Positions 215 through 62,163 of a stretch of 64,000 nt of DNA are shown piece after piece. Source of the DNA: Chitinophagaceae bacterium UBA7600. Its GTDB lineage: Bacteria > Bacteroidota > Bacteroidia > Chitinophagales > Chitinophagaceae. The position numbers and the translations under genes are program-made. The stretch covers positions 62,001 through 126,000 of the forward strand of contig DLKC01000017.1 in the NCBI GenBank assembly GCA_002478885.1, read 5' to 3'. Position 1 is the first letter of the stretch, and each line of letters opens with the position of its first letter. The notes beneath the pieces were generated by a model. It was given only the letters and a program-made list of their open reading frames with translations. It had not been told where the DNA came from and ran no database searches.

Positions 215-270
215 GCACAAGAGTGCGACGCAAGAACCGATGCTACCTGCACAAAAGCCAGGTGCATAAA
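215..270 (+). repeat. Dispersed repeat, single right arm (E1)
   Basis: A GAGTGCGACGCAAG core near 221-234 is followed by a CGATGC block and an outer end AAAAGCCAGGTGCATAAAA at 252-270. No left arm is visible upstream within the window. It lies between the converging dehydrogenase and acyl-CoA synthetase genes. Confidence 0.8.
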
Positions 271-277
271 AGGCTTT

Positions 278-1969
278 CTAGAAAAAAAACTCAAACGCTC
301 CCTTTATTTCCTGCGAACACTTTTGTGCCTCAATGGCGCGTAATTCAATACGACGAATTTTACCGCTGATGGTTTTCGGCAACTCTTTTACAAACTCGAT
401 GATGCGTGGCGTTTTATAGGAAGCCAGGTTTTTTTTGGCAAACGCGAAAATTTCTTCGGCGATGGCAGCGCCGGGCTCATATGCGTTGCTTAAAACAATG
501 AAAGCCTTTACAACGAAGCCGCGGACCTCGTGCGGACTTGCTACAACAGCCGACTCTACTACAGACTCATGTTCCAATAAAATACTTTCCACTTCAAAAG
601 GGCCAACGCGGTAATCGGAAGTTTTAATAACGTCATCATCCCGGCCGACAAACCAGATGTAGCCATCAGCATCTTTGTATGCCTTGTCGCCGGTATAATA
701 GAGGTCGTGCTTAAACACATCATTCTTTTTTGCACGGTCGCCAAAGTATTCGGTAAAAATGCCATTGGGTTTTGTGCCGGCCGTTCTCACAGTAATATTT
801 CCTTCTTCATCGACCGGCATTTCATCACCATTATCATCAGCAATAACAATGTCGTAAAGAAAAGTAGGCTTTCCCATAGAACCTGGCTTTATTTTATGGC
901 CCGGAAGATTGGCAACCAGCAATGTACTTTCTGTTTGTCCATACCCATCGCGAATGGTTAGGCCTGTTCCTTTCCTCCATGCTTCAATGATCTCGGGATT
1001 CAAAGGTTCTCCGGCTGCCACGCACTCACGAAGATTGAATTTATACGATTTAAGATCTTCAAGTATAAGCATACGTAAGGCTGTTGGCGGCGAGCAAAAT
1101 GTGGTGACTTTATGTTGCTGAATCAAAGCCAGTTGTTCCGCAGCATTAAAACGCCCTTTCTGATAAAACGCGAATACTGTTGCCCCAACACTCCATGGCG
1201 CAAAAAAACTGCTCCACGCAAATTTTGCCCAACCCGGCTGCGATATGTTATAATGCACGTCGCCCTTTCGTAAACCAATCCATGATGCTGTTGTTAAATG
1301 TCCGAGCGGATAGCTCAGGTGTGTATGTGTAACAATTTTCGGCATTCCGGTAGTACCCGAAGTGAAGAATAAAAATAAGGGGTCGCCAGCATTGGTATCG
1401 GCGGCTTCGGCCTCATCGCTTTCCAAAACAATTTCATCAAAGGAAGTCCAACCTTGAGCCGACCCGTTAACAATAATCTTAGTTGTTACCGATTTTCCTA
1501 CGAGCACTTCAGCTTCGTCGATTTTTGCTGCGTTGTCGGCATCTGCAATTACGGCGTCGGGCATTAATTTGCCAAAGCGATAAACAATATCATGCACACT
1601 TAAAATAGTCGCTGCTGGTATTAACCGAAAGCCGCCCTTAACGGAAGTCATTACCGTAAGCCAGTTTTCTGGCAGCAATGGTATTTGTGAATATAAAACA
1701 TGGTTTTGCCGTAATCCTTTTCGGCGCAGCAAATTCAGGAAGCGGTTGCATAAAAGGCTAACCTCGCGAAATGAAAACTGCTTTGTTTGCTCAGCATCTG
1801 TCCACAAGAGCGCAGTCGCATCCGGGTCATCCTTCGCATTTATGTGTTCAAATATTTCCTTGGCCCAATTGAATTTTTTCGGCCTTTTAATTTCCGTTTC
1901 ATAAAGCGATTGAAAATCACCTTTGGCAATGAGATCGCGGCATTCCCTAAACAGTTGCTCCATACTCAT
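278..1969 (-). CDS. AMP-forming acyl-CoA synthetase (medium-chain / ACSM-like)
   Basis: This 563-residue member of the adenylate-forming superfamily should activate a carboxylic acid with ATP and CoA to acyl-CoA, AMP and pyrophosphate in the cytoplasm. The P-loop FFTSGTTGMPK is at residues 201-211, YGQTE at 343-347, TGD at 426-428, the hinge motif VGRDDDVIKTSDYRVGPFEVE at about 441-461, and the catalytic lysine of PKTISGKIRR is K537. Domain order and length fit medium-chain acyl-CoA or acetyl-CoA synthetase-like enzymes. The hinge reads SDYR where many relatives have SGYR. Acid specificity cannot be read from sequence. The start used is the first Met (MSMEQ); the Met two codons later is equally possible. 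It is a single-gene unit whose 3' end faces repeat arm E1. Confidence 0.9.
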   Translation of the reverse strand: MSMEQLFRECRDLIAKGDFQSLYETEIKRPKKFNWAKEIFEHINAKDDPDATALLWTDAEQTKQFSFREVSLLCNRFLNLLRRKGLRQNHVLYSQIPLLPENWLTVMTSVKGGFRLIPAATILSVHDIVYRFGKLMPDAVIADADNAAKIDEAEVLVGKSVTTKIIVNGSAQGWTSFDEIVLESDEAEAADTNAGDPLFLFFTSGTTGMPKIVTHTHLSYPLGHLTTASWIGLRKGDVHYNISQPGWAKFAWSSFFAPWSVGATVFAFYQKGRFNAAEQLALIQQHKVTTFCSPPTALRMLILEDLKSYKFNLRECVAAGEPLNPEIIEAWRKGTGLTIRDGYGQTESTLLVANLPGHKIKPGSMGKPTFLYDIVIADDNGDEMPVDEEGNITVRTAGTKPNGIFTEYFGDRAKKNDVFKHDLYYTGDKAYKDADGYIWFVGRDDDVIKTSDYRVGPFEVESILLEHESVVESAVVASPHEVRGFVVKAFIVLSNAYEPGAAIAEEIFAFAKKNLASYKTPRIIEFVKELPKTISGKIRRIELRAIEAQKCSQEIKGAFEFFF

Positions 1970-2057
1970 ACAACAAGCTTTTATTATTTATAAAAATACG
2001 AAGAACAGTAAATGAAAATATTTAAACGCTGCTTGTTACCATTTCGAATTTTTATTG

Positions 2058-2239
2058 TTTTTGAGCCCGGCAACAGAACATGTATTTAACTTTACTTGCG
2101 TCGCACTCTTCAGCGCCAATTTTTCTATTGAGCAATAGAACAACTGAAGGCATCGGTCACTTGCTGCACAGAATGTTGCGGTACAAGAGTGCGACGCAAC
2201 CAGGCTTAATGCTTTTACAAAAGCCTGTCACCAAAAAAA
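2058..2239. repeat. Dispersed repeat, full left-right pair (E2)
   Basis: The left outer end TTTTTGAGCCCGGC is at 2058-2071 and the left core TTGCGTCGCACTCTT at 2096-2110. The right core GTACAAGAGTGCGACGCAAC is at 2181-2200 and the outer end runs to the A-run ending at 2239. It is about 182 bp and stops five bases before the ATG of the GH95-like gene, so it forms that gene's whole immediate upstream region. Confidence 0.85.
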
Positions 2240-2244
2240 TTATA

Positions 2245-4491
2245 ATGAAAAAACTTTTTGTTCTGCTGCTCTTTCCCTGCATTGTGTTTTCGCAACCGGG
2301 ACCATCGCATAACCTCACCGGCGACACACTCGCCAAACGATGGGACGAAGCAATGCCAATAGGCAATGGCATGCTCGGCGCCTTGATCTGGCAAAAAGAA
2401 AACAAATTGCGTTTAAGTCTTGACTGCGCAGATATTTGGGATGAGCGTGATGCAATAGATCTTTCCAAATTCAATTACCGTTTTGTTCAGCAGCATGTAG
2501 CTACCAATGACTACGATACCGTTCACCAGCTTGGCGACTGGCCTTATGACAATATTGCCTATCCCACAAAACTGCCTGCCGGTGCATTGCAATTTGACTT
2601 AAACAAGCTCGGCAAAGTGCAGCATGTTTCACTGGACATAGCAACAGCTTTATGTAAAGTGGATTTCGAAGACGGAAAACGCATGAACATTTACATACAT
2701 GCAACAGATAATGTCGGCTATTTTGGCTTTGAACATTTTTCTATGGAGGCATTTAATCCAGAACTAATCATTCCAAATTATAATAGTGCTAATACAAAAG
2801 CCGATAACGGCAGTCATTCAGGCGAAGGCCTAGGGGTGCTTGGTTACTCAACAGGCACGGTAACGAAAACAATCAACAGTATCAGGTATCATCAACCAAC
2901 ATACAAAGGCCATTACTACGAAATATTTGTTCAGTGGAAAGCTTTCCCCAACAACAACATCATTGGCGAATGGACCATTACCACTGATAAAATCGCAAAG
3001 CTTCCCGCATTAAACACAACAGCTAAAGAGCCAACCAACTGGCCATCGCATGTGCAATGGTGGAAAAATTTCTGGTCGCAGTCATCGGTCTCCATACCAG
3101 ATGAGCAACTGATGAAGCAGTACTATCTTGAAATGTATAAGCTGGGTTGCGTTTCCCGCCAAGGCGCTCCAGCCATCACTTTGCAGGCCATATGGACTGC
3201 AGACAATGGCAGCCTTCCACCGTGGAAAGGAGATTTTCACCACGACCTTAATACACAGTTAAGTTATTGGCCATGTTATACGGGAAATCATTTGCAGGAA
3301 GCCGTTTCTTATACTGATTGGCTTTGGGCTACGAGCGCAGAAAACAAAAAATATACAAAACAATTTTTCGGTGTTAACGGGCTTGCCGTGCCCGGCGTTA
3401 CTACAATAAGCGGGAACGCAATGGGTGGATGGATACAATATTCTTTGTCTCCATCTGTTTCTTCATGGTTGGCGCAACATTTCTACTGGCAGTGGAAATA
3501 TTCCATGGATAAAAGTTTTCTCGCAGCAAAGGCTTATCCTTACCTGCACGTTGTGGCAAGCTTTATTGAAAAAATCACTTACCTGGAAAATGGTAAAAGA
3601 ATTATCGCGTTAAGTTCAAGCCCGGAGTATCATGATAACAACATCAATGCCTGGTTCACACAATATACCAACTACGATCTTTCTCTGTATAAGTTTGCTT
3701 TGTCGGCTGCAGCAGAAGCAGCAGCTGCGATGAGCAAACCGGAAGAAGCCAAACATTGGAATAGCATTTTAGGCCAGCTTCCCGCATTTGATATCAACGA
3801 AACAGGATTAACTATAGCGCCTGGGCAAAACCTTGATGAATCGCATCGCCACCACGCGCAACTAATGCCCATTTACCCATTGTGCGAACTGGATGCAAAC
3901 AATCAGGCAGACAAAAAAATTATCGATCTTTCCCTTGCATGGCTTAATCAAATGGGCACGAGAGAGTGGTGCGGCTATTCCTTCTCCTGGCTTGCCTGCA
4001 TTTATGCAAGAGCAAAACAGGCTGACAGCGCGGTGAAACAACTGAAAATATTTGCAACCAATTTTTGTTCGGTTAACAGCTTTCATTTAAACGGCGATCA
4101 GCACGGCGGCGAGTATTCCAATTTTACTTACAGGCCATTCACACTTGAAGGCAATTTTGCGTTTGCACAGGGTGTGCACGAAATGCTGCTGCAAAGCAAA
4201 AGCAATTATATTGAAGTGTTTCCCGCGGTGCCGCGAAGCTGGAAAAATGTTTCTTTTACAAACCTGCGCAGTGAAGGAGCTTTCCTAGTTAGCGCGAAAA
4301 AAGAAAACGGCGTACCAACAGAAGTAAAAGTATTCGCAGAACAGGGTGGGTTACTGCACATAAAGCTGCCTTTCAAAACCATGATCGTTGAGAAAGCAAA
4401 TCCGGAAATGATTAAGAGGGGGGGTGATGGAATGATTTCCGTGCAAATGAAAAGGAGCCAGGTGATCTTTTTCAAAAATGGTTATGAATAA
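2245..4491 (+). CDS. Secreted GH95-like glycoside hydrolase (probable alpha-L-fucosidase)
   Basis: The protein has 748 residues with a signal peptide MKKLFVLLLFPCIVFSQ. ATG 2245 is chosen because the 55 extra codons upstream are made of repeat E2. Family features are an N-terminal AMPIGNGMLGA motif (about residues 36-46), the (alpha/alpha)6-barrel motif HHDLNTQLSYW (about 332-342), and the GH95-type C-terminus EGNFAFAQGVHEMLLQS (about 635-651) followed by the FPAVPRSW segment and a beta-domain. GH95 enzymes remove alpha-1,2-linked L-fucose (or galactose) by inversion. A GH29 fucosidase lies 2.2 kb downstream on the other strand, which supports a fucoside-degrading role in the periplasm or outside the cell. 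Exact linkage specificity is unproven. Confidence 0.8.
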   Translation: MKKLFVLLLFPCIVFSQPGPSHNLTGDTLAKRWDEAMPIGNGMLGALIWQKENKLRLSLDCADIWDERDAIDLSKFNYRFVQQHVATNDYDTVHQLGDWPYDNIAYPTKLPAGALQFDLNKLGKVQHVSLDIATALCKVDFEDGKRMNIYIHATDNVGYFGFEHFSMEAFNPELIIPNYNSANTKADNGSHSGEGLGVLGYSTGTVTKTINSIRYHQPTYKGHYYEIFVQWKAFPNNNIIGEWTITTDKIAKLPALNTTAKEPTNWPSHVQWWKNFWSQSSVSIPDEQLMKQYYLEMYKLGCVSRQGAPAITLQAIWTADNGSLPPWKGDFHHDLNTQLSYWPCYTGNHLQEAVSYTDWLWATSAENKKYTKQFFGVNGLAVPGVTTISGNAMGGWIQYSLSPSVSSWLAQHFYWQWKYSMDKSFLAAKAYPYLHVVASFIEKITYLENGKRIIALSSSPEYHDNNINAWFTQYTNYDLSLYKFALSAAAEAAAAMSKPEEAKHWNSILGQLPAFDINETGLTIAPGQNLDESHRHHAQLMPIYPLCELDANNQADKKIIDLSLAWLNQMGTREWCGYSFSWLACIYARAKQADSAVKQLKIFATNFCSVNSFHLNGDQHGGEYSNFTYRPFTLEGNFAFAQGVHEMLLQSKSNYIEVFPAVPRSWKNVSFTNLRSEGAFLVSAKKENGVPTEVKVFAEQGGLLHIKLPFKTMIVEKANPEMIKRGGDGMISVQMKRSQVIFFKNGYE

Positions 4492-4495
4492 CTTT

Positions 4496-4547
4496 GTTAC
4501 CGGCAGCGGGATATATGGCATCGCCGGTTGTGTCACTCCCTTCAACA
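4496..4547 (+). repeat. Dispersed repeat, single left arm, variant dialect (E3)
   Basis: GTTACCGGC outer end at 4496-4504, then GGCATCGCC at 4518-4526, and the variant core TTGTGTCACTCCCTT at 4528-4542. A decayed right-arm-like stretch may follow to about 4582. Together with E4 it brackets the single gene 4625-5686. Confidence 0.7.
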
Positions 4548-4624
4548 TTCTGAAGTTCCATCGGCGACGGGCATTTGCCAATGCTCGTTTATTGATTTAA
4601 ATTTATGCGACCAAACTGGAATTC

Positions 4625-5686: not shown

Positions 5687-5721
5687 GAACAGTATGTTTC
5701 CAAAGACGAGTAAAGTGCAAG

Positions 5722-5779
5722 GCGCACAAGTGAGTGACACAACGATGCTGATTGATGCACCAAAGCCGGTGACAAAAAG
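5722..5779 (+). repeat. Dispersed repeat, single right arm, variant dialect (E4)
   Basis: Variant core CAAGTGAGTGACACAA at 5727-5742, then two GATGC blocks, then the outer end AAAGCCGGTGACAAAAAG. It ends at the base before the stop codon of the following minus-strand lipoprotein gene. Confidence 0.8.
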
Positions 5780-6649
5780 TTACCGCATCACCGCCGTAAA
5801 TTCACCGTCTTTTATTTGGCTGACAATATTATTCCAGTCAACTGTTGTTCCGCTGAAATGGCCTTTAATAATTTTTGTTGTTTCGTCGTAACTATTAATG
5901 GTAAGGCTTACTGTCGCGCCGGTGGAGAGCGGGATCAATCCACCGCCGGCGCAGTTAAGACAGGCATCGCTAAAGGTTTTGAAGACGATACCAGTTGGCG
6001 CATCATCGGTACTGTAATTACCAGGTTTAATAACACCCGAAGGCAAGCCAATATTGATCATGAACGTGGAATCGCCGGGCTGTTGTGCAGGTTTGGTCGC
6101 AAGCACAAGTACTTTTAGCGTGCCGAGTTCAAGCAAATAATTATTTTCAAAAAGCCCCTTATAAGTAATACCTGAACGGCCGTCGGTAAATTTCCAGTTA
6201 TTGTTATCGATTGGCAACAGAGGGTGCAATTCAGCGCTGTCGTGAACACTGATACTGAATGCACATTCGCTGGTATCAAAATACACTGCAAAGCCTGTAA
6301 CTGCTTTATTCAGCGGAACACCTTTTGTGTGAAGTTTTACCGTATTAATACCGGTATTTACAAAAACTCCTGAGCCGGAAAAACTCAAGCCATTTTGTTC
6401 ATTTGTGGAAATGGTATATTGGCCGGGCTTGGTAACGTTTACTTTTACCTCAACATACGCGGTATCGGAACCCGGTACAATGCCATTGTAAAATGTTCCG
6501 TGCACAATTTCGTTAAAGCAAATTCCTGATGAATCTTTTAAAGTTCCTCTGGCTATACCGCCATCGGGCAACTCTTTCTGGCAGCCGGTATAACACAAAC
6601 TGGCAATAAGCAAAAACAACAACGCAACATATGCAACAGGCTTGATCAT
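5780..6649 (-). CDS. Putative lipoprotein of unknown function
   Basis: The protein has 289 residues. The N-terminus MIKPVAYVALLFLLIASLCYTGCQKE is a hydrophobic signal ending in YTGC, a plausible though imperfect lipobox, so attachment to a membrane is likely. The remainder is Gly/Thr/Ser-rich and looks all-beta, ending in a pattern (GHFSGTTVDWN, then IKDGEFTAVMR) often seen at the end of small Bacteroidota beta-barrel or calycin-like lipoproteins. I do not assign a named family. It lies directly downstream of the GH29 fucosidase (17 bp gap, same strand), so the two probably form one transcript and the lipoprotein may be a surface accessory. Its stop codon touches repeat arm E4. Confidence 0.75.
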   Translation of the reverse strand: MIKPVAYVALLFLLIASLCYTGCQKELPDGGIARGTLKDSSGICFNEIVHGTFYNGIVPGSDTAYVEVKVNVTKPGQYTISTNEQNGLSFSGSGVFVNTGINTVKLHTKGVPLNKAVTGFAVYFDTSECAFSISVHDSAELHPLLPIDNNNWKFTDGRSGITYKGLFENNYLLELGTLKVLVLATKPAQQPGDSTFMINIGLPSGVIKPGNYSTDDAPTGIVFKTFSDACLNCAGGGLIPLSTGATVSLTINSYDETTKIIKGHFSGTTVDWNNIVSQIKDGEFTAVMR

Positions 6650-8140: not shown

Positions 8141-8199
8141 TTTTTTATGAGCCCTGCTACAATAAATATAGCATCGCCTGTTGCGTCGCACACTTCGGC
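8141..8199 (+). repeat. Dispersed repeat, single left arm (E5)
   Basis: Outer end TTTTTTATGAGCCCTGC from 8141, GCATCGCC at 8171-8178, core TTGCGTCGCACACTT at 8181-8195. It lies between the 5' end of the GH29 gene and the 3' end of the monooxygenase gene. Confidence 0.85.
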
Positions 8200-8205
8200 T
8201 TATGG

Positions 8206-9243
8206 TTAGTTGTTCGGCAAGGCTTTTCTCACCGCAGGTGCAACAACATTACCAAACAATTCTATTGCATGCATCATCTGGCCGTGTGGTAAAGTACCCA
8301 CGCTAAACTGCACCATAAACCTTGTGTTGCCAAAGAGCTCGTGCTCATATAAAATTTTATCGATCACCTGTTGCGGGCTGCCAACAAGCAACGCGCCTTT
8401 GGGATTGCGCATAAATTCAAATTGCTCTTTTGTTGTAGGCGGCCAGCCACGCTCACGACCAATTTTCGACATTACCGAAGCATACACCGGGAAGAATTCG
8501 TCTGCCGCCTGTTGTGAATTGTCCGCTATAAATGCATGCGAGTTTATGCATATTTCCAGTTTGGAAATGTCATGCCCTGCCTTTGCATATTCATCGCGGT
8601 AGAAATCGGTATAAGGGCCGAATTGTTCAGGCTTTCCTCCAATGATCGCAATGGTAAGGGGCAAACCAAGTCTGGCTGCACGCTGAACGGAAGCCGGAGT
8701 TCCCCCGATGGCGACCCAAATAGGCAGCTTTTCATGAAAAGGTCTTGGGTATATCCCCAAATCATTGATTGCTGCGCGATGTTTTCCTTTCCAGGTAACT
8801 TTTTCGCTTTCGTTGATTGCGACAAGCAGCCGAAGTTTCTCATCAAACAAGGTATCATAATCCTGTAGATCGTAACCAAACAATGGAAATGACTCTATAA
8901 AAGATCCGCGGCCCGCCATGATTTCAGCCCTCCCGCCCGATATAAGATCAAGTGTTGCGAATTGTTGAAATACTCTAACGGGATCATCTGAACTCAGCAC
9001 TGAAACAGCACTGGACAGCCTGATGTTTTTTGTTCTTGCCGCAGCTGCGGCCAATAAAGTTGCCGGAGAAGAAACAAGATAATCGGGACGGTGATGCTCA
9101 CCGATGGCGAACACATCGAGGCCAAGTTGGTCTGCGAGTTCAACCTCTTCAAGTAAATTCTGAAAGCGCTGGTAGGGGCTGATCATTTTCCCCGTTCTTG
9201 GATCGGGCGTTAGTTCTACGAAAGTGCTTATTCCTAGTTGCAT
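8206..9243 (-). CDS. Luciferase-like (LLM class) flavin-dependent oxidoreductase
   Basis: The protein has 345 residues. The start MQLGIST at 9243 is preferred over a 15-codon longer frame because an exact -7 box lies at 9252-9259, leaving almost no leader. Family features are an N-terminal LGISTFVEL strand, the [13 protein letters not shown] flavin-site region near residue 50, [16 protein letters not shown] near 100, and a C-terminal [18 protein letters not shown]. Such enzymes use FMNH2 or F420 to oxidise varied substrates; substrate and partner reductase cannot be told from the sequence. It is a single-gene unit: E5 lies at its 3' end and a decayed arm-like stretch upstream at 9314-9356. 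Confidence 0.85.
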
Positions 9244-11210: not shown

Positions 11211-11385
11211 TTGTTTTGAGCCAGGCTTTTGTTGCTGGTGGCATCAGTTGTTGCGTCGCACACTTGATCGTTCGGTTCAATGATTATCAACAGCATTCCC
11301 AGTCACTTGCTGAAGTAAATTTTTGAAAGTACAAGAGTGCGACGCAACAGGTGATAAATAGTAGCTTAAAAGCCGGGTACAAAAA
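11211..11385. repeat. Dispersed repeat, full left-right pair (E6)
   Basis: Left outer end TTGTTTTGAGCCAGGCTTTT at 11211-11230, left core TTGCGTCGCACACTTG at 11251-11266, right core GTACAAGAGTGCGACGCAAC at 11329-11348, right outer end AAAAGCCGGGTACAAAAA ending 11385. About 175 bp, between the divergent DUF885 and feoB genes; nearly the whole 346-bp gap is this repeat plus the feoB promoter. Confidence 0.9.
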
Positions 11386-15156: not shown

Positions 15157-15276
15157 AATGGTAAGTATTTTATATTGGTAAGCAATAAAGATAATGTTTG
15201 TGGTGCATACGGCTTTGTTTGATCGTGGATACTGACCCAAAAGTACCCGAAATCGTTTGCTGACCAGCGTTATTAA

Positions 15277-15333
15277 GTACAAGAGTGCGACGCAACAGGT
15301 GTTGAGCTGAATTCGAATGCCGGGCTCAAAATT
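15277..15333 (+). repeat. Dispersed repeat, single right arm (E7)
   Basis: Core GTACAAGAGTGCGACGCAAC at 15277-15296 and outer end GCCGGGCTCAAAATT at 15319-15333. A decayed left partner may lie at about 15205-15245 but its core is not recognisable. It lies between the 3' end of the MerC gene and the 5' end of the helicase. Confidence 0.85.
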
Positions 15334-16947: not shown

Positions 16948-17005
16948 TTTTTTTTGAGCCTGACTTAACTGCCCATGGCAACTTCGTTGCGTCGCACACT
17001 TCAGG
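16948..17005 (+). repeat. Dispersed repeat, single left arm (E8)
   Basis: Outer end TTTTTTTTGAGCCTGAC from 16948, core TTGCGTCGCACACTTC at 16987-17002. It begins two bases after the Fur stop and lies just upstream of the comB promoter. With E9 it brackets comB alone. Confidence 0.85.
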
Positions 17006-17041
17006 GTTCTTTTCATTAATGGGCTTATCAACCGCAGCCTG

Positions 17042-17877: not shown

Positions 17878-17955
17878 CAAATTGCCCTGTTCTCAACCAA
17901 CCGGACCAAAAAAATCTTTGAAAATCACTTACTCATTTTTCGAGTAAAGTTCGGA

Positions 17956-18019
17956 ACGCACAAGTGAGTGACACAACCGGCGATGAGCAGTGCTGCTTCG
18001 CCTGTACATAAGGGAAAAA
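17956..18019 (+). repeat. Dispersed repeat, single right arm, variant dialect (E9)
   Basis: Variant core CAAGTGAGTGACACAA at 17961-17976, GGCGATG block at 17979-17985, and a weak outer end to 18019. It lies between comB and the SNF2 gene, inside the probable leader of the latter. Confidence 0.75.
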
Positions 18020-21827: not shown

Positions 21828-22057
21828 TTTTTTGATAGCACGCTGTGGCGCAGGTGGCATCGCCTTTTGCGTCGCACACTTATACAACATATCGCCTATG
21901 AGCGGTGTGCGTGCTTGTTGCGAAGCTATTTGGTACACAAGTCAACTCGGTCACAATCTCTAGAGTTTGCCGGCTTTGCTGCCTAACGTTACTGCAGTTG
22001 AAGTGTGCGACGCAAGTAAAGATAAATTCCAGTACTGCTGCCGGGCCCAAAAAAATT
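21828..22057. repeat. Dispersed repeat, full left-right pair (E10)
   Basis: Left outer end TTTTTTGATAGCACGC from 21828, GGCATCGCC at 21857-21865, left core TTGCGTCGCACACTT at 21867-21881, right core GAAGTGTGCGACGCAA at 22000-22015, outer end GCTGCCGGGCCCAAAAAAA to about 22057. About 230 bp with a long middle, between the converging SNF2 and esterase genes. Confidence 0.85.
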
Positions 22058-24788: not shown

Positions 24789-24993
24789 TTTTTTTGGAGT
24801 GTGAACGGGCTGTTGGCACTTTGCCCGTCGCCTGTTGTGTCACTCACTTGTACGATATAACTTTGGGCGGCAAGCCGAAAAGTTTAATACAAGAGTTGAA
24901 TTTAAACGGCCAGCAGCTCATAGCTTTCTTCGGTACAAGTGCGCGACGCAACAGCTGCCGATATTTATTCTTAAGCTTGGCCCAAAAAAATTT
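24789..24993. repeat. Dispersed repeat, full pair with mixed dialects (E11)
   Basis: Left outer T-run and GGAGTGTGAACGGGC from 24789, left variant core TTGTGTCACTCACTTGTAC at 24835-24853, right standard-type core GTACAAGTGCGCGACGCAAC at 24933-24952, outer end AGCTTGGCCCAAAAAAA to 24993. The two arms belong to different dialects. With the rpmH promoter it fills most of the 377-bp gap. Confidence 0.85.
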
Positions 24994-27443: not shown

Positions 27444-27587
27444 CTTTTATATACCCTGCTTTTGAACAAGCATGTAACACCAGTTGCGTCGCACTCTTGT
27501 ACTTAAAAACATTATGCACCAGTTAAGTTACTGCAGCTGAAGGGTGCGACGCAACAGTTGATGCCATTTTAAACCGCAGGCGGTAAG
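27444..27587. repeat. Dispersed repeat, full left-right pair (E12)
   Basis: Left outer end CTTTTATATACCCTGCTTTT at 27444-27463, left core TTGCGTCGCACTCTTGTAC at 27484-27502, right core GCTGAAGGGTGCGACGCAAC at 27536-27555, right outer end to 27587. About 144 bp, the most compact pair, between the SOD and modC genes. Confidence 0.85.
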
Positions 27588-27606
27588 CTTGTGTTGTGGC
27601 ATTAAG

Positions 27607-29556: not shown

Positions 29557-29629
29557 GCAATGTTTGTAAGGATAAATGTATTTGAAAAAAAATTTCTCTT
29601 CCCATTTTTAATTTGTTGATCACTGAAAA

Positions 29630-29797
29630 TTTTTGGTCCATACTTTTGTTCTTTGTGCAGCTGCCGTTGCGTCGCACTCTTGTGCATTGATAGCTTACGC
29701 AGCAATAAAAATACGTCAGGCTTTTTTGCCGATCTGTGTTGCAGGCGCACAAGAGTGCGACGCAAGAAAAGTTTATGAAAGTTTAAAAGCCTGGCCA
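29630..29797. repeat. Dispersed repeat, full left-right pair (E13)
   Basis: Left outer end TTTTTGGTCCATAC from 29630, left core TTGCGTCGCACTCTTGTGC at 29667-29685, right core GCACAAGAGTGCGACGCAAG at 29747-29766, outer end AAAAGCCTGGCCA to 29797. The last base of each core is matched (GTGC / GCAC instead of GTAC), so the two ends changed together. It fills most of the 319-bp divergent gap between mop and the crotonase gene. Confidence 0.9.
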
Positions 29798-29875
29798 ATG
29801 ACATTTATTATCACAAAATCTTTGCACAAATACGTATAGATAAAATTAACTTTATAAAGAACAATAATAAAACCT

Positions 29876-31845: not shown

Positions 31846-31859
31846 TGAATAAGGTTATG

Positions 31860-31914
31860 CTGTACAAGTGAGTGACACAACGAAGCTGAGTAAGTTTACA
31901 CAGCCGGCTTTATA
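31860..31914 (+). repeat. Dispersed repeat, single right arm, variant dialect (E14)
   Basis: Variant core GTACAAGTGAGTGACACAAC at 31862-31881 and outer end ACAGCCGGCTTTATA. It ends about four bases before the stop of the convergent TolC-family gene. Confidence 0.8.
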
Positions 31915-31917
31915 ATG

Positions 31918-33300
31918 TTATCTCAATAATCCGCCGGCCCATTGTGTGGCATAATATGCTTTCTGGTACTTAATGCGTAGCTCTACTAATTTCTGAGCGG
32001 TTTCAATCAATTTATTTTCACGGCTGTTAACCAAAAACAAGGAAGATTCGCCATTTTGAAATTTAAAATCTTCCTGTCGCAGCAAGGAGGTATAATTCGC
32101 AAACATCGATAACATGATTTTTAGCTGTGCCTGCATTTGTATAAATTGGTTATAATAAGAACGTATTTTATTTTCTACTTCCCAACGCTTGGCGGAAAGT
32201 GCATAATTCGTTTCCTCGATTTTTAGTTTGGCCTGCTTGTAATCGCCGCGCCCTTCGCGCAAAAACAATGGCACTTTTACATCGATACCCCATTTATAGT
32301 TGTTTTCGAGAAATGCGCCATCCACACCTTTAAAAACATTATAGCCTTTATTGAGCAAATTTGCTTTTGCATTTACCACTGGCAACAGGCTCTGAAATTT
32401 TAGTTTGCGTTCAACAGCCAGCGCGTCAAGTTTGTAAGAATAACTCTTCAATGCCGGGTTTTGATCGGATGCGGTTCTTATCAATTGATCAAGTTGCGGC
32501 GCTTGTTGTTCCATTGCAAATTGCAAGGTGTCGGGAACGAACGTGGACGGCAAGTCGTAAGCGCTATCGTTATCCTGCCACAGATAATTCGAAAGATCGA
32601 TCGCAGCATCATTCAGCTTCATTTTCGCATCTGACTGCAGCATCATAAAGCTCTGTACCTGCGTTAATGCTTCAAGCGTATCCATGGCGGCGCGATCGCC
32701 ATTCTCGTAGGCAATCTTCACAAGCCGGTAACGTTCTGCCGATGCCTGCAAATATTTTGTGTATAACGAATACAAACTGTATGTTCCCGCCCATTGCCAG
32801 TAGGCGGCGTACGCTTCAAACAAAAGATCGTTCATTGCATTCAGGCGATCCTGCTCGCTTTGATTTATCATAATTTTTGCCTGCTGCAATGCAGCCCTGC
32901 GCTTGTCCATTACAAGCCCTTTTGCCAAAGGCATTTCAACGCCCAAATAACTTGATTGCCCTTTGGTAACCTCAGGATTTAAATAGTTGCCACCATTGTT
33001 TTCAAGACCAGCCTTTACATTCAACCCGATCCATGTCGGAATTTTTAGTTCAGGGTTTGTATAGAAGTAGTAGTTTTTCCCATCAAAAGTTTTACGCGAT
33101 GCATCGAGCGTTAATGCCGGATCAAAATCGCCACGTGATGAAAGCAATGCATTTGCGGCTCTTTCCACCATAATGTTCGATTGCTTTGCAACCGGGTGAT
33201 ACAGTTTTACCTGTTGAATAAAAGCATCTGCAGTAAAAAGCTCCTGGGCATTTACCCGCAATGCTGCAAAACAAATTAAGATGAGTAATATTTTCTTCAT
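31918..33300 (-). CDS. TolC-family outer membrane channel (type I secretion-like trio)
   Basis: The protein has 460 residues with a signal peptide (MKKILLILICFAALRVNAQ). Long alternating helical segments with QSEQDRLNAMNDLLFEAYAAYWQW and RLVKIAYENGDRAAMDTLEA are typical of the outer membrane efflux (OEP) repeats. It should form a trimeric channel. It is the last gene of a unit ABC - HlyD - TolC on the minus strand, separated from hlyD by 102 bp that hold repeat arm E15. Its 3' end is next to arm E14, so this gene alone sits between R and L arms. Confidence 0.9.
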   Translation of the reverse strand: MKKILLILICFAALRVNAQELFTADAFIQQVKLYHPVAKQSNIMVERAANALLSSRGDFDPALTLDASRKTFDGKNYYFYTNPELKIPTWIGLNVKAGLENNGGNYLNPEVTKGQSSYLGVEMPLAKGLVMDKRRAALQQAKIMINQSEQDRLNAMNDLLFEAYAAYWQWAGTYSLYSLYTKYLQASAERYRLVKIAYENGDRAAMDTLEALTQVQSFMMLQSDAKMKLNDAAIDLSNYLWQDNDSAYDLPSTFVPDTLQFAMEQQAPQLDQLIRTASDQNPALKSYSYKLDALAVERKLKFQSLLPVVNAKANLLNKGYNVFKGVDGAFLENNYKWGIDVKVPLFLREGRGDYKQAKLKIEETNYALSAKRWEVENKIRSYYNQFIQMQAQLKIMLSMFANYTSLLRQEDFKFQNGESSLFLVNSRENKLIETAQKLVELRIKYQKAYYATQWAGGLLR

Positions 33301-33324: not shown

Positions 33325-33382
33325 TTTTTTTGAGCCTGGCTTTTTTACTCTATTGAACTGTTGTTGCGTCGCACTCTTGTAC
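33325..33382 (+). repeat. Dispersed repeat, single left arm (E15)
   Basis: Outer end TTTTTTTGAGCCTGGCTTTT from 33325, core TTGCGTCGCACTCTTGTAC at 33364-33382. It sits inside the putative operon between the hlyD-like and tolC-like genes. Confidence 0.88.
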
Positions 33383-33402
33383 TTCCTGTTTACGAGGCAG
33401 CA

Positions 33403-34749
33403 TTATTTTTTTGCAGCGGCATCTTTGGACGGCTGATAATAATCTGGCGGAAATCCATTGATGTTGCGCCACAATTCGTACCACACCGGAACGTCTTTGA
33501 GCAAAGCAATACCGCTTGCTGCTCCGCCAAGCCGTAATTGTTTCGGCCAAGGCTTATAGGTAGTATCTTCCTGTACCAGCACACGAAACTTACCATCGGC
33601 GCTTGTATTATTTTCCACCGCGGTAACAACACCTGCAAATGTTCCGTACGAAGCTTCAGGCCAGCCTGTGAAAACGATGGCTGGGAAACCATCAAAAACA
33701 AAACGCACTTTTTGGCCTTTGTTCATCAATGGCTGATCAACAGGGTCTATATACATTTCCACCGCGTAATCAAATTGGTCTGGTATAATCTCAACAATCA
33801 GATCTCCGTCTTTTAGAATCTCCCCGATACCTGCTTTCTTCGCCTGCACTATTTGCCCGCTTTGCGGTGCCAACACATAATAGAGTTGGTTGCGCATGTC
33901 GTAGCTGGCATAAATATTTTTTAGTTTGGCAATATCAGCTTCGGTGGTCGCTACGCTGGAAAGCGATGAAAATTTGTCCCCCTCAGTCTTTGATATTTTG
34001 TCGGTATAATCCTGTATGGTACTGTTTTTCTCTAAGCCTATATTCAGCATTTCCTGTTTCGACTGCAGCAATTTATTTTCCGCACTTAATTTTTTCGCCA
34101 TTGCATTTTGATAACTCACTTTTCTTTTTTCAAAATCCACTAACGACATAACGCCGCTGTCGAGCATAATCTTTGCTGCGTCAATTTGCCTTTTGGAGAC
34201 GGTCAATTCATTTATAACCGCGGCAAGATCCATACTATCAGTTTGCAGCTTTAAAGCTTGCTGTTTTTGTTTTATATCAAGTTGGTTTAGTTTAAGGTCG
34301 CGGCCCTGTTTTAACGCGCTTGTTTGGGTTTCAGCAGTTGCTGCTTTATTCTTATAGCCTTCAGCAGAAAGCGATTTTGCATTAAGCTGATCTTGTGTGC
34401 GCTGCAGCAAATCAGGATCCATATAATCGACCTTAACTTCGCCCAGTTGCAAAATCGTATCGCCTTTTTTCACAATATCACCTTCCTTTATATACCATTT
34501 AACCACCTTACCGGCAATAACATTGTTAACCTCCTGCGGTCGCTGCTCAGGCCGTAGCGTAGTTACTTTTCCTTTAGCTTTTATATTTTGTGTCCACGGA
34601 AGAAACAATGCAAGTATAAGTGTAACAAGTATCGCTATCAGCCATTTTTTAACTGAATTATTTTTATGCACACGGTAAATCGAATTGAAAGAATTATAAG
34701 GAGGCATTCCCCCGGATCCGTCGATTCTGCTATGTATAAAGTCAGTCAT
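33403..34749 (-). CDS. HlyD-family membrane fusion protein
   Basis: This 448-residue protein has one N-terminal membrane helix (about residues 35-51), then a biotinyl-lipoyl-like half with VNNVIAGKVVKWYIKEGDIVKKGDTILQ, a long coiled-coil hairpin (about 110-270) and the second lipoyl half (VLAPQSGQIVQAKKAGIGEILKDGDLIVEIIP) before a beta-barrel. It should bridge the inner-membrane ABC protein and the TolC channel. The gene begins 27 bases after the ABC gene stop. Confidence 0.9.
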   Translation of the reverse strand: MTDFIHSRIDGSGGMPPYNSFNSIYRVHKNNSVKKWLIAILVTLILALFLPWTQNIKAKGKVTTLRPEQRPQEVNNVIAGKVVKWYIKEGDIVKKGDTILQLGEVKVDYMDPDLLQRTQDQLNAKSLSAEGYKNKAATAETQTSALKQGRDLKLNQLDIKQKQQALKLQTDSMDLAAVINELTVSKRQIDAAKIMLDSGVMSLVDFEKRKVSYQNAMAKKLSAENKLLQSKQEMLNIGLEKNSTIQDYTDKISKTEGDKFSSLSSVATTEADIAKLKNIYASYDMRNQLYYVLAPQSGQIVQAKKAGIGEILKDGDLIVEIIPDQFDYAVEMYIDPVDQPLMNKGQKVRFVFDGFPAIVFTGWPEASYGTFAGVVTAVENNTSADGKFRVLVQEDTTYKPWPKQLRLGGAASGIALLKDVPVWYELWRNINGFPPDYYQPSKDAAAKK

Positions 34750-37283: not shown

Positions 37284-37446
37284 TTTTTTGTTCCATGCTC
37301 CGGTATTACTATGAAGCATTGTTGCGTCGCACTCTGCTACAACAGAATATAAGTCGGCAAGTTGAGCAAGTTCACCTGCGGACAAACACCTGAAGTGAGT
37401 GACACAACAGGCGATGCCATGAAAAGCAAATGCCGGCGACCAAATT
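37284..37446. repeat. Dispersed repeat, full pair with mixed dialects (E16)
   Basis: Left outer end TTTTTTGTTCCATGCTCCGG from 37284, standard left core TTGCGTCGCACTC at 37322-37334, right variant core CTGAAGTGAGTGACACAAC at 37390-37408, GGCGATGCC at 37410-37418, outer end TGCCGGCGACCAAA to 37446. The SulP gene's stop is at the next base. Confidence 0.85.
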
Positions 37447-40302: not shown

Positions 40303-40311
40303 ATTGTTGTA

Positions 40312-40367
40312 TTTTGGTTTTGAGCAAAAGTAATATTATTAAGCTTCGTTGCGTCGCACTCTTGTAC
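40312..40367 (+). repeat. Dispersed repeat, single left arm (E17)
   Basis: Outer end TTTTGGTTTTGAGC from 40312, core TTGCGTCGCACTCTTGTAC at 40349-40367. It covers the fabG -7 box and the place expected for the -33 box. With E18 it brackets mqnC alone. Confidence 0.85.
40325..40332 (-). promoter_or_regulatory. -7 box TACTTTTG of fabG, inside arm E17
   Basis: Exact TAnnTTTG match on the minus strand, 22 bases upstream of ATG 40302. The expected -33 position (about 40352-40355) lies within the repeat core. Confidence 0.6.
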
Positions 40368-40398
40368 GCTTTGTTCTTCCACCAGCCCAAACACAGAT

Positions 40399-41553: not shown

Positions 41554-41677
41554 AGGCAAGCAACCTTTAATTTGTTTCAGCAGTTTTAAGTACAGGAAGC
41601 AAAATCATTTTATCAGCGGTTTGGGTTATCAATTAGTGTGTACTAACTTCATAGTTCTGACGAGTCGTTAACCAAGC

Positions 41678-41735
41678 GCTGAAGTGTGCGACGCAACAAA
41701 AGTTCAATAATGAGAAAAAAAGCCGGGTACATAAT
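41678..41735 (+). repeat. Dispersed repeat, single right arm overlapping a start codon (E18)
   Basis: Core GCTGAAGTGTGCGACGCAAC at 41678-41697 and outer end AAAAAAAGCCGGGTACATAA at 41715-41734. The outer end begins just inside the aspartyl protease coding region and supplies its codons 3-8. Confidence 0.88.
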
Positions 41736-42912: not shown

Positions 42913-42975
42913 AAAAATGATGGTCCCGGCTTTTGAATAAGCATATGGCTTTTGTTGCGTCGCACTCTTCAAGGT
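42913..42975 (+). repeat. Dispersed repeat, single left arm (E19)
   Basis: Outer end GATGGTCCCGGCTTTT at 42919-42934, core TTGCGTCGCACTCTTC at 42955-42970. It lies between the aspartyl protease stop and the convergent gyrB terminator. No right partner follows. Confidence 0.85.
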
Positions 42976-42996
42976 TTGTTTCAACATTCAGCAAAC

Positions 42997-43047: not shown

Positions 43048-45036
<1,989 letters not shown>

Positions 45037-48373: not shown

Positions 48374-48550
48374 TTTTGTTAACAGGCACCGGTGCATTCT
48401 TCAGGCTTTGGTTGTGTCACTCACTTGTACTTCATAACATAAGGCATCAGCAGTAAGACGTGCGAACCCGTGTTTGAGGAATATTTATTCGACTGCACAA
48501 GAGTGCGACGCAACAGCCGATGCCACAGCGAACAAAGGCCGGGAACATAG
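48374..48550. repeat. Dispersed repeat, full pair with mixed dialects (E20)
   Basis: Left outer part TTTTGTTAACAGGCACCGG from 48374, left variant core TTGTGTCACTCACTTGTAC at 48412-48430, right standard core GCACAAGAGTGCGACGCAAC at 48495-48514, outer end AAAGGCCGGGAACATAG to 48550. It lies between the adaptor and pump genes of one efflux system. Confidence 0.88.
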
Positions 48551-48618
48551 TTAAGATAACCATACAGAACGAAAAAGCAAACAGGGTAAAGTAACTTATT
48601 AATTCAGCCAGTTTAGAA

Positions 48619-53755: not shown

Positions 53756-53762
53756 GAGATCT

Positions 53763-53967
53763 GTTGACCCGGCTTTAGTCTAAGCATTAAGCTTTCGTTG
53801 CGTCGCACACTTGTACTGTATCAAAAAAAGCAGCAATTAAAGGTTTAACAAGCATCGGCGTTTTACATTTTACTCAAATGCATTTTTGCCAATCGGTGTT
53901 CGGAACGATGAACGGATTGCGACGCAACAGCCGATGCCATAGAAGAGAAAAGCTGGTACCAAAAAAT
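53763..53967. repeat. Dispersed repeat, full left-right pair (E21)
   Basis: Left outer end GTTGACCCGGCTTT at 53763-53776, left core TTGCGTCGCACACTTGTAC at 53798-53816, right core with ATTGCGACGCAAC at 53916-53928 (partly decayed), CCGATGCC block, outer end AAAGCTGGTACCAAAAAA to 53967. It stops seven bases before the nitrilase ATG. Confidence 0.85.
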
Positions 53968-57454: not shown

Positions 57455-57581
57455 ATTTTCTATTATGAAAGATTGATAAAAAGCATAAGGTGTAGTAGCA
57501 ACAGGGCCGTTGCACAGTTTTAATAACAACAAAAACAGAAAGTGAAGCGAAGGCTATTTTTCATTATGGTGCGAAGATATT

Positions 57582-58836: not shown

Positions 58837-58861
58837 AAAAAAGCCGGTTTTAAAGCCGGCT
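58837..58861 (-). terminator. Terminator after the small 68-residue protein gene
   Basis: Stem AGCCGG / CCGGCT with a TTTTAAAG-type loop, and a T-run on the minus strand. It is 21 bases past the stop. Confidence 0.75.
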
Positions 58862-58882
58862 GCTGAAAAAGTAATTATTTTA

Positions 58883-59089: not shown

Positions 59090-59150
59090 GTTAAAAAATT
59101 TAATGGTTTAAAATATAGTTAGTGAGCACAAGCTACGTTAAATATATAAT

Positions 59151-59405
59151 ATTTTATGTACCGGGCTTATTTTATCGTTCCACCCTGTTTGCTGCCAGCA
59201 TTTTTTGTAGCCGCACATGGTACAAGAATTCAGCTTCCATTGCGTCGCACCCTTGTACTCACTGTGTTGCCATGGCGTCAAATACAATTTACGCAGGACA
59301 ACTGCTTATAAGTGATAAATAGATATTGCTCATAAAAGACCTGAACGCTGAAGAGTGCAACGCAACGGGCGATGCCTCAAAAATAACAGGCTGGGCTCCA
59401 AAATT
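59151..59405. repeat. Dispersed repeat, full left-right pair (E22)
   Basis: Left outer end ATTTTATGTACCGGGCTTA from 59151, left core TTGCGTCGCACCCTTGTAC at 59240-59258, right core GCTGAAGAGTGCAACGCAAC at 59347-59366 (one base off the dyad), GGCGATGCC at 59368-59376, outer end CAGGCTGGGCTCCAAAA to 59405. The longest copy at about 255 bp, with extra sequence in the left arm. With 80 bp of promoter region it fills the 397-bp gap. Confidence 0.85.
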
Positions 59406-59486
59406 TTCTTCTGCTTATAACTCTTACGTGTTTTAACATACTGTAAATTTTTGTTGCTTAAATTGCACACGCTGAAAAAATAAAAG

Positions 59487-60725: not shown

Positions 60726-60750
60726 ACCTGCATTTTATATATTTCAGATA

Positions 60751-60780
60751 GCAAAACAGCGCATTGTTGCGCTGTTTTGC
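60751..60780. terminator. Perfect hairpin between the M16 and corA genes
   Basis: Perfect 12-base stem GCAAAACAGCGC / GCGCTGTTTTGC around ATTGTT, without a long T-run outside the stem. Probable terminator of the M16 gene. Confidence 0.5.
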
Positions 60781-60886
60781 GTTTGTGTCTTTCCTACGCT
60801 TTATGGATGTTTGGCAGCAAAAAATATTCTTTTCCTCGCTGGTATTCAATAATTTCATAGCAAGCAATTCTAAAACGATTCTTACG

Positions 60887-61990
60887 ATGGCCTACCAAAA
60901 TCTAAAGCCTACAAAATATCTTCATTTTATTCTTCCGTTTTTTAATACAAAACGTACGAAAGAAATCTTTAATGTTAACCCAACCGTATTGCCGCCAAGA
61001 GAAGAAGCCGCAGAAATAGGTGTTTATGTTTACGACTATAATTCAACGGAACTAAAGGAATATGATCTTAGTGATGTACAGGATTGTTATCTCTTCCGCG
61101 ATAATAACAACAAAAGCTGGATAAATATCGATGGCATAAGAAAGGCAGATGTAGAAAATATTTGTAACCACTTTGGCATTCACCCATTAATTGCTGAAGA
61201 CATTCTTAGCGTTGGTCAGCGGCCAAAGATGGACGAAATGGATGATGTAATGTTCTGCGTAATGAATATGCTGTATTTTATGCCTTCCGGCGCAGTAGAG
61301 TCTGAACAGGTGAGTATTGTGTTGGGCAAAGATTTTGTAATAAGTTTCCAGGAAAATAATAAACGCGATGTGTTCAATTCACTTCGTGACAAGTTGAAAG
61401 TGGCCAACTCAAAACTGCGCCAAAACAAGGTTGACTATTTATGCTATATGCTTATAGATACCATCGTTGACCATTACTATCTGGTAATGGAAAAACTTGG
61501 TGAGCGCATCGAGCAACTGGAAGAAGAGATTATTCGTGTTGGTAACACTCGTTCTCTTGCCCGCATCAACAGTTTACGCAAAGAGTTGATCGTGCTGAAA
61601 AGAAACATTAATCCTGTTCGCGACCTTGTAAACGGCTTTATCCGTAGCGAAAGTGATTTGCTGGACGAGCGTACAACTAAATACTTTAAAGATGTATACG
61701 ATCACATTGTTCAGGCAAGTGACCTTGTAGAGAACTATCGCGACATGATGATCAACCTGCAGGATCTTTACATGAGCAAAGTAAATCTTCGCCTTAACGA
61801 AGTGATGAAAGTAATGACAATTGTTACTTGCCTACTCGCCCCGGCAACTGTTATTGGCGGCATCTTTGGAATGAACTTCGAGGTAATACCATTAACACAC
61901 CAGAAGGAAGGATTTTATGTTGCAGTGGGCATGATGCTGCTCATACCCGTGTGGATGATCGTTACATTCAAAAAAAGAGGGTGGTTTTAA
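60887..61990 (+). CDS. corA: Magnesium/cobalt transporter CorA
   Basis: The protein has 367 residues from MAYQNLKPTKYL; the 41 upstream codons are rejected because they cross the hairpin region. A large cytoplasmic funnel domain is followed by a long helix and two C-terminal membrane helices with the selectivity motif GMN in GGIFGMNFE (about residues 325-333). It imports Mg(II) as a pentamer. The end KKRGWF is the usual basic tail. Confidence 0.93.
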   Translation: MAYQNLKPTKYLHFILPFFNTKRTKEIFNVNPTVLPPREEAAEIGVYVYDYNSTELKEYDLSDVQDCYLFRDNNNKSWINIDGIRKADVENICNHFGIHPLIAEDILSVGQRPKMDEMDDVMFCVMNMLYFMPSGAVESEQVSIVLGKDFVISFQENNKRDVFNSLRDKLKVANSKLRQNKVDYLCYMLIDTIVDHYYLVMEKLGERIEQLEEEIIRVGNTRSLARINSLRKELIVLKRNINPVRDLVNGFIRSESDLLDERTTKYFKDVYDHIVQASDLVENYRDMMINLQDLYMSKVNLRLNEVMKVMTIVTCLLAPATVIGGIFGMNFEVIPLTHQKEGFYVAVGMMLLIPVWMIVTFKKRGWF

Positions 61991-61996
61991 AAGTTC

Positions 61997-62163
61997 TTTT
62001 TGGAGCTTGGCATTTTTGCATTACCCGGCTGCTGTCGCGTCGCACACATTTACAACATACTCCACAATCAGCGCTTATACATTTTGATGAGTAAGGTTCA
62101 ATACGTTGAAGTGTGCGACGCAACGAAGGCTGAAGCGAGAACAAAAAGCTGGGATCAAAAAAG
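61997..62163. repeat. Dispersed repeat, full left-right pair (E23)
   Basis: Left outer end TTTTTGGAGCTTGGC from 61997, left core GTCGCGTCGCACACATTTAC at 62034-62052, right core GTTGAAGTGTGCGACGCAAC at 62105-62124, outer end AAAAAGCTGGGATCAAAAAA to 62163. It starts seven bases after the corA stop and lies between converging corA and DUF2480 genes. Confidence 0.85.

Follow-up and report, generated by a model that had tools for sequence, protein, structure and literature searches.

The repeat arms that lie between the genes of some Chitinophagaceae could be polar DNA sites for a putative trans-acting protein, possibly one with a part in recombination or integration at the borders of genes, a reading that we infer with less than even confidence. 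Such a protein would bind the ~78 bp polar arm through its spaced word boxes and would recombine or integrate DNA there, so that a gene block plus the half-arm on its T-run side would be joined to new neighbours; the core classes may be alternative specificities. A trans-acting factor had been expected in the initial annotation of this DNA, and we count the expectation as supported, in the form of a probable, still putative protein. If the arms are recombination-active, they would explain gene-order change in Chitinophagaceae and supply a new site-specific system.

Each arm runs from a T-run at -38 through the end box CAGCAA at +39, with a CCGGC box, a CATC box and the core between them in this order. 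The word boxes are placed about two helical turns apart, at about -27, -8, +16 and +35 around the core. Three cores are interchangeable within the arm: class A is TTGCGTCGCAC[AT]CTT, class B is TTGTGTCACTCACTT and class C is TTGCCACGCTCG[GT]TTC. Class C is rare and absent from the window (the whole stretch of 64,000 nucleotides that was analysed), has the same outer boxes as A and B, and gave 0 matches in a reversed-sequence control. At core positions 3 and 7, the 438 arms examined have C-G at a frequency of 0.81, T-A at 0.18 and mixed combinations at ~0.01, and at one site with an in-place class switch the core positions 3, 7, 9, 11 and 12 differ while the flanks can still be aligned. The odd-length palindromes described earlier as building blocks of every arm are only partly general: the CCGGC box is variable, as is the CATC box, TGCG-T-CGCA is the class A form and class B keeps only GTG-T-CAC.

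In the preferred reading the arm acts as DNA, not RNA. An RNA element is rejected in view of purely local couplings between arm positions, 0 Rfam matches at the gathering score in the 64-kb window, and the lack of a fold signal on either strand, the mean energies of 89 arms against one mononucleotide shuffle each being -17.8 vs -17.5 and -16.9 vs -16.0 with RNA parameters only. By the same comparison the arms do not form the hairpins of REP/REPIN or attC elements. A coding peptide was rejected by eye from the codon changes between the core classes.

Scanned with a whole-arm weight matrix that was trained on the same DNA, the window yields 34 arms, with 17 on each strand, exactly the number and the left-right balance counted in the initial annotation; 456 kb of reversed, uncomplemented sequence yield none above 9 bits, which confirms a real repeat family beyond chance. 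The mismatch search proposed at that time, run with a 19-mer and as many as 3 mismatches allowed, has 20 matches in the window vs 0.02 expected. Core class A is used by 27 arms and class B by 7. The eleven inverted pairs and twelve single arms are also recovered, as 11 close + - pairs of ~146-224 bp from T-run to T-run (145-255 bp in the initial annotation) and 12 solitary arms. In each pair the left arm is on the + and the right arm on the - strand, both of class A unless indicated: pair 1 at 2058..2135 and 2160..2237 (PWM scores 54.8 and 55.5 bits), pair 2 at 11213..11290 and 11308..11385 (53.1 and 55.5 bits), pair 3 at 21829..21906 and 21976..22053 (41.9 and 63.1 bits), pair 4 at 24797..24874 (class B) and 24912..24989 (44.4 and 40.4 bits), pair 5, the shortest, with overlapping end boxes, at 27446..27523 and 27515..27592 (48.2 and 35.3 bits), pair 6 at 29629..29706 and 29726..29803 (56.2 and 56.1 bits), pair 7 at 37284..37361 and 37368..37445 (class B; 48.3 and 47.9 bits), pair 8 at 48374..48451 (class B) and 48474..48551 (40.5 and 60.8 bits), pair 9 at 53760..53837 and, weak, 53888..53965 (60.3 and 16.4 bits), pair 10 at 59202..59279 and 59326..59403 (42.7 and 59.6 bits), and pair 11 at 61997..62074 and 62084..62161 (33.6 and 65.5 bits).

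Some solitary arms enclose a gene. The class B arms at 4490..4567 (+, 45.9 bits) and at position 5742 (5703..5780, -, 30.4 bits) lie around gene 4625-5686; the class A arm at 16949..17026 (+, 42.1 bits) and the class B arm at position 17976 (17937..18014, -, 43.4 bits) around gene 17059-17790 (2-phosphosulpholactate phosphatase family); and the class A arms at 40311..40388 (+, 47.3 bits) and at position 41696 (41657..41734, -, 46.1 bits) around gene 40399-41523 (radical SAM, CofH/MqnC family). The other solitary arms are those of class A at 194..271 (-, 62.7 bits), 8143..8220 (+, 59.7 bits), whose end box extends into the 3' end of gene 8206-9186, 15256..15333 (-, 59.9 bits), 33326..33403 (+, 68.1 bits) and 42917..42994 (+, 54.2 bits), beside the 3' end of gyrB (43048-45027), and that of class B at 31841..31918 (-, 28.2 bits).

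The 456,286 bp of this genome that were scanned contain 194 arms, and the whole genome carries about 1,800. A search of relatives, also suggested beforehand, found exact cores in 79 of 147 Chitinophagaceae genomes vs none of 381 other genomes of the phylum. Exact arms number 253 in G024 and 1,475 in G140, and among the low-copy loci 1 of 40 (L152) has an exact core without a full arm. Exact 15-mer counts diverge even within genera (344 in G102 and 0 in G003; 572 in G025 and 2 in G121); with hundreds of arms in one species and none in another of the same genus, the putative protein should be findable through gene-content comparison. The initial annotation knew of no described family with this core, and we likewise found none in Rfam for the window or in the literature searched, which left out most subscription journals and preprints; the consensus arm had no match in phage and plasmid records.

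The arms are kept out of genes, as had been noticed in the window. With genes called by our own simple gene caller, none of the 194 cores lies within a called gene, although 78.7% of the 456,286 bp is called coding, and 11 of the 194 arms overlap a gene end by 1-14 bp. It is the T-run side that faces or abuts genes: a stop codon lies 37-46 bp from the core in 48 of 106 arms with the T-run toward a 3' end vs 4 of 86 with the other side toward it. The arms could accordingly be thought of as transcription boundaries, at which the T-run and a bound protein array halt RNA polymerase or insulate neighbouring units with no role in recombination. The arms do begin in the T-tract of intrinsic terminators (G120, G102, G140/G058), inverted pairs fit two flanking genes, and terminator-like signals are fewer where 60 bp or less separate the stop codon from the start of an arm (12/55) than where there is no arm (29/88), the difference not being significant (p 0.18). 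However, arms face 5' ends (89) almost as frequently as 3' ends (106), divergent gaps are occupied about like convergent ones (24/46 and 26/43), arms at 61-250 bp coexist with terminators (18/32), and the avoidance of direct orientation described below is left unexplained. We consider such a boundary role unlikely, but it would reveal an abundant, family-specific chromosome protein. A role as promoter or terminator for one particular end of genes is rejected, since the orientation to genes is too even and terminators are not significantly lost.

The balanced orientation and frequent pairing reported for the window were confirmed and extend to a spacing rule. In six arm-rich genomes, neighbouring arms closer than 300 bp are oriented + - in 59 cases, - + in one and directly in none, so that arms sharing a gap run + then - and inverted dimers, as in REP/REPIN, make up 59 of 60. 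Direct orientation is found in 6 of 45 pairs at 300-1500 bp, 12 of 25 at 1500-2000 bp and a fraction of 0.42-0.52 above 2 kb. The 456 kb contain 16 further + - spacings of 413-1347 bp, 15 of them enclosing a called gene. In UBA4407, 15 arms alternate strictly across 22 kb. Solitary arms have a neighbour of the same orientation in 28 of 101 cases vs 50 expected; by our own arithmetic this long-range alternation is mostly explained by + gene - units together with the short-range avoidance of direct orientation. The rarity of direct arms across one gene may reflect loss of that gene when such arms recombine, an outcome that inverted arms would escape.

Inverted arms of this kind could also be the ends of a transposon. 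MITEs have inverted arms with a short spacer, are scattered between genes and vary in presence or absence among relatives, and the arms resemble them in all these respects, including the inverted cores of pair members expected of terminal inverted repeats. If the arms were the terminal inverted repeats of a non-autonomous, MITE-like element, sometimes with one passenger gene, the transposase would be encoded elsewhere and solitary arms would be remnants. The close + - pairs, the gene-enclosing spacings, the 15-mer differences within genera and arm pairs on a viral contig are consistent with this, but the arms do not look like copies. What they have in common is the boxes, and the sequence between these is random, even between pair partners. 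Pairwise identity is 0.45, and the best-partner median of 0.62 vs 0.58 in column-shuffled controls shows none of the likeness along the whole length expected of MITE copies. At variable positions the identity is 0.28 for pair partners vs 0.30 for all pairs, and the partners' variable parts are not complementary. Three pairs of arms exceed an identity of 0.75, two of these 1.6 kb apart at one place. Solitary arms are no weaker than paired ones either (median score 52.8, n=108, vs 50.2, n=86; p 0.49). We regard a transposon as somewhat unlikely.

Comparison of related genomes bears on both readings. In collinear blocks of G024 and G120, 10 of 16 arms are common to both genomes; the other 6, one of which exists in G024 split by a short insertion, would fit transposition, as does a pair that is cleanly present in one genome and absent from the other: in G120 it immediately follows a stop codon, and G024 has a 29-bp gap in its place. 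No target duplication was seen at this single clean empty site. In G060 and G070 an arm precedes the same 395-aa gene, identified by eye as tuf; its core is identical at 20 of 20 bases, and most of the non-coding flank is not.

It is partly shown that the ends of blocks with changed neighbours coincide with arms at a higher rate than control gaps contain them. Between two related genomes, 24 of 44 gene-block ends lie at arms, and 14 of 70 gaps within blocks have one (Fisher p 2e-4). Each event contributes two of the 44 ends, the control gaps are not size-matched to the block-end gaps, two of the three query pieces (L062 and L226) were picked for carrying five arms each, and most of the G120 contigs were taken because they matched these two pieces. 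Ends less than 400 bp from a piece edge and alignments below 400 bp or 74% identity were excluded, and 20 of the 44 ends have no arm within 100 bp. When the block is on the T-run side, 14 of 22 observations place its end between -15 and +22, inside the core or next to it; when the block is on the other side, none of 15 has its end closer than +26. In these 37 observations an end is entered once for each of the two genomes, and the asymmetry could simply mirror the T-run end lying nearer its gene. The crossover base is not constant among junctions. As a counterpoint to a recombination site, gene boundaries, where the arms sit, tolerate order changes anyway.

In integrons, attC sites abut the stop codon of their gene, the sequence between their boxes varies and genes change neighbours there; attC forms a hairpin and, within an array, follows the cassette genes on their 3' side. 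The arms are like attC in the abutted stop codon, the variable sequence between conserved boxes and the neighbour change at the site, and unlike it in that they do not fold, occur on either side of genes and are chromosome-wide. We speculate that a cassette system spanning the chromosome, a kind of dispersed integron that has no array, could use them for recombination; T-run halves would stay with their gene and a putative recombinase would re-join bracketed transcription units at exchangeable cores over much of the chromosome in some Chitinophagaceae, though so specific a system is rather doubtful.

The initial annotation had placed the arms among REP/REPIN or MITE-type elements, and this was not supported: they fold no better than shuffles, are not mutual copies, and partners share only the boxes. 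In PMC3733652, REPs with GTAG or CGTC tags are palindromes of 20-40 bp with stems of 5-13 bp and an unpaired tag, and CGTC REPs are given as having no dedicated transposase. The arms are like REP/REPIN, as described there, in being intergenic, abundant, favoured as inverted dimers and patchy among species, but they lack a stable hairpin, are at least twice as long, consist of separated boxes with random spacers, and no arm-flanked Y1_Tnp gene was found. From MITEs they differ in the missing family of near-identical copies and the partners that differ outside the boxes. A long, polar, uncopied-looking motif at up to about 2,600 arms per genome (the highest estimate, G140) exceeds what REP or MITE theory explains.

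The RAYT or IS200-type transposase with flanking arms that had been proposed was not found either, as none of the three Y1_Tnp genes in this genome has an arm on each side. Next to one of them lies a lone class C arm, 68 bp from the ORF, which would favour a transposon; a second has one class B arm, 1.07 kb away, and the third has none, where ~4 arms are expected across the 9.9 kb at this genome's density. Against a transposon, 8 of 9 class C arms in the DNA examined have no Y1_Tnp-like ORF within 2.5 kb, as searched with three query sequences. G024, with its 253 exact arms, is listed without Y1_Tnp, G140 is missing from the 105 genomes, out of 144, that are listed as having a match, and G115 has 15 Y1_Tnp and no arm. 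In view of the missing two-sided arms and the mismatched genome distribution we reject RAYT as the source. A link to small nuclease genes, seen by eye in low-copy genomes, was dropped without being disproved, the wider set, not systematically annotated, including ordinary neighbours.

Such a motif could also be enriched if uptake and recombination were biased toward it in a lineage capable of natural transformation. PMC2397512 and PMC3630211 describe Neisseriaceae uptake sequences (DUS) that resemble the arms in being a motif rather than a copy, with many sites on both strands, tight inverted pairs and dialects comparable to our classes, and hundreds to thousands of independent, non-copy sites would fit. 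But DUS are 10-12 bp and also found within genes (PMC2397512), whereas the arms are ~78 bp, polar toward genes and kept out of them, and follow the + - rule with short-range avoidance of direct orientation. Their information content is ~49 bits, where by our own arithmetic ~12 would be enough to single out some 2,000 sites, and arm pairs occur on a phage contig; we find an uptake sequence quite improbable. The arm pairs on this viral contig adjoin phage replication and neck genes. Separately, rpoC adjoins rpoB in only part of the 40 genomes surveyed.

The arms, intergenic repeats of ~78 bp running from a T-run to an end box CAGCAA, are abundant in this bacterium. The word TTGCGTCGCACTCTTGTAC, searched with up to three mismatches as the initial annotation had proposed, has 20 matches in the window against 0.02 expected. 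We built a weight matrix of the full arm from 456,286 bp of this genome, comprising the window and another 392 kb; it detects 194 arms there and none when the same DNA is read backwards. Thirty-four lie in the window, 17 per strand, as 11 close + - pairs (a left arm, +, followed by a right arm, -; 22 arms) and 12 solitary arms, the same numbers as in the initial annotation. Decayed copies are all but missing, since 190 of the 194 score above 20 bits and the lowest 13.2 bits. Cores never reach more than 60 bp into a called gene, though 78.7% of the 456 kb is called coding, in agreement with the earlier view that arms stay outside gene bodies.

The anatomy of the arm fits a predicted multi-part DNA binding site, judging by its box layout, its local couplings and a folding no better than that of shuffles on either strand. 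Counted from the first T of the core (position 0), the arm has a T-run at -38 to -33, a CCGGC-like box at about -29 to -25, a CATC/AAGC-like box at about -10 to -4, the core from 0, a GTAC or CAGC tetranucleotide at +15 to +18 and a CAGCAA-like end box at +34 to +39. It holds ~49 bits from -40 to +40, and beyond the T-run and end box the base composition equals the background. The strongest couplings among 438 arms join positions 3-7, 7-9, 15-16 and 20-22 and neighbours within boxes. Three interchangeable words can fill the core, the 194 arms comprising 150 of class A, 42 of class B and 2 others. Class C, TTGCCACGCTCG[GT]TTC with the same T-run and boxes (reversed control 0), occurs once in the 456 kb and not in the window, where the single match is at chance level. 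It is also present in G024, G120 and G069 (genomes of the same family), UBA4407 and others, and such arms lie at loci L069, L170, L171, L172, L207, L228, L240, L247 and L037. Our literature search found no description of the motif.

By sequence the arms do not resemble copies of each other. Their pairwise identity is 0.45, the best-partner identity has a median of 0.62 versus 0.58 with shuffled columns, and three pairings of arms exceed 0.75. Partners in close pairs are 0.28 identical in their variable parts versus 0.30 for any two arms, and solitary and paired arms have similar weight-matrix scores. Membership among MITEs, suggested initially, is rejected for this lack of copy similarity. The accompanying REP/REPIN proposal falls with the absent hairpin and the absent flanking of a RAYT (GTAG/CGTC REPs, PMC3733652, served as comparison): none of the three genes in this genome with Y1_Tnp, the RAYT/IS200-type transposase domain, is bracketed by arms. 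Beside one of them a class C arm lies 68 bp from the ORF, a second has a class B arm 1.07 kb away and the third has none, where chance would give ~4 arms for the same amount of DNA. The position of the class C arm (L051 position 1303, contig C91, - strand, upstream of the ORF) may be meaningful because this class has a single member in the 456 kb examined, and we keep this single case as a lead. Y1_Tnp is present in 105 of 144 genomes of the family; G024, with 253 arms, is listed without it, and G140, with 1,475 arms, is presumably absent from the Y1_Tnp matches too, judging by those listed. G115 has 15 Y1_Tnp matches, ten of those listed with equal score and length, and 0 arms.

That the arm is a polar DNA site for a putative trans-acting protein is well supported. 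Where the T-run points toward a gene's 3' end, a stop codon lies 37-46 bp from the core in 48 of 106 arms; with the other side toward the 3' end, in 4 of 86. At other sites the T-run doubles as the T-tract of an intrinsic terminator, as would suit a transcription boundary, which we consider unlikely; the gene ends faced by arms are 106 3' and 89 5'. In six arm-rich genomes, 59 of 60 neighbours less than 300 bp apart take the order + then -, and the direct orientation accounts for 6 of 45 pairs at 300-1500 bp, 12 of 25 at 1500-2000 bp and near one half farther apart. Wider + - spacings below 1.5 kb number 16 in the bacterium's own genome; 15 of them enclose a called gene, and these genes seem ordinary by eye (Pfam names two of three in the window).

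Individual sites keep their boxes, and arms are also acquired or lost, as genome comparisons show. Ahead of one gene, which we take by eye to be tuf, G060 and G070 have an identical core in a mostly different non-coding flank. G024 and G120, two members of one genus with ~81% DNA identity, have 10 arms in common and three apiece of their own across 133 kb of collinear blocks. One G120-only arm (L230 3430, contig C136) is present in G024 (contig C8, about 38744) but split by an insertion of ~22 bp inside the core; the other two form one pair behind a stop codon, opposite a 29-bp gap in G024. The core class was switched in place at one site common to both genomes compared. G140 and G058 share a terminator hairpin almost unchanged, while the arm that follows it differs between them in its spacer parts. 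The G120 pair that G024 lacks (L240, contig C151, 44156-44324) has a strong GC-rich, terminator-like hairpin within its spacer.

Gene order tends to change at arms. Comparing 469 kb of G024 with 371 kb of G120, we found an arm no farther than 100 bp from 24 of 44 collinear block ends, in one genome or both, versus 14 of 70 within-block gaps (Fisher p 2e-4); the ends occur in twos, the gaps are of unmatched size, and two of the query pieces, with the contigs added on their account, had been selected for arms or matches. The other 20 ends have no arm, and it counts against the association that gene boundaries are where arms lie anyway. The T-run side has 14 of 22 observed ends in or at the core and the other side 0 of 15, an asymmetry that may follow from distance. 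A 1.56-kb block of G024 with - and + arms at its flanks is on a different contig in G120, where both outer half-arms are recognisable and the cores are gone. In other differences G024 has a 1.3-kb gene plus an additional arm, and G120 has a 2.7-kb stretch that holds two-component genes together with an arm. Recombination or integration of DNA at the arms by the putative protein is the most economical account of the placement rules and these gene-order results, and we propose it tentatively. Arms could instead be the ends of a transposon, a reading that we find doubtful.

The arms are unevenly distributed among relatives. In its own genome (5.47 Mb) the class A 15-mer has 1,305 matches with at most one mismatch (backward control 1), and classes A and B together 1,805 (control 6). 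Exact matches occur in 79 of 147 genomes of the family, 1 to 1,526 per genome, and the counts differ within single genera (344/0, 143/0, 572/2 and 29/0); in low-copy genomes an exact core belongs to a complete arm at 39 of 40 loci. Across the phylum the exact 19-mer was found in 7 of 395 genomes, all among the 14 of the arm-bearing family, and in none of the remaining 381, in an exact search that diverged variants would escape. We take this family to be Chitinophagaceae because of the titles of the arm-bearing gyrB loci. Among the best 80 of 592 gyrB loci, all named, 78 have no arm above 15 bits; that of Pinibacter aurantiacus MAH-26 has one, and that of the Chitinophagaceae bacterium UBA4407 (L247) has 15 in 22 kb in strict + - alternation, with gyrB between a - arm and a + arm. 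High copy number would suit a DNA uptake sequence (compared with PMC2397512 and PMC3630211), a role that we regard as improbable.

The 19-mer also occurs in 20 stretches of viral contigs. One of these contigs (L091) has a weak phage signal, and another (L092, IMGVR_UViG_3300025896_003619) carries two arm pairs, at 2063/2124 and 6362/6452, with phage genes adjoining. One pair of L092 lies immediately upstream of a phage replication-initiation gene, which is followed by a neck/tail-completion gene.
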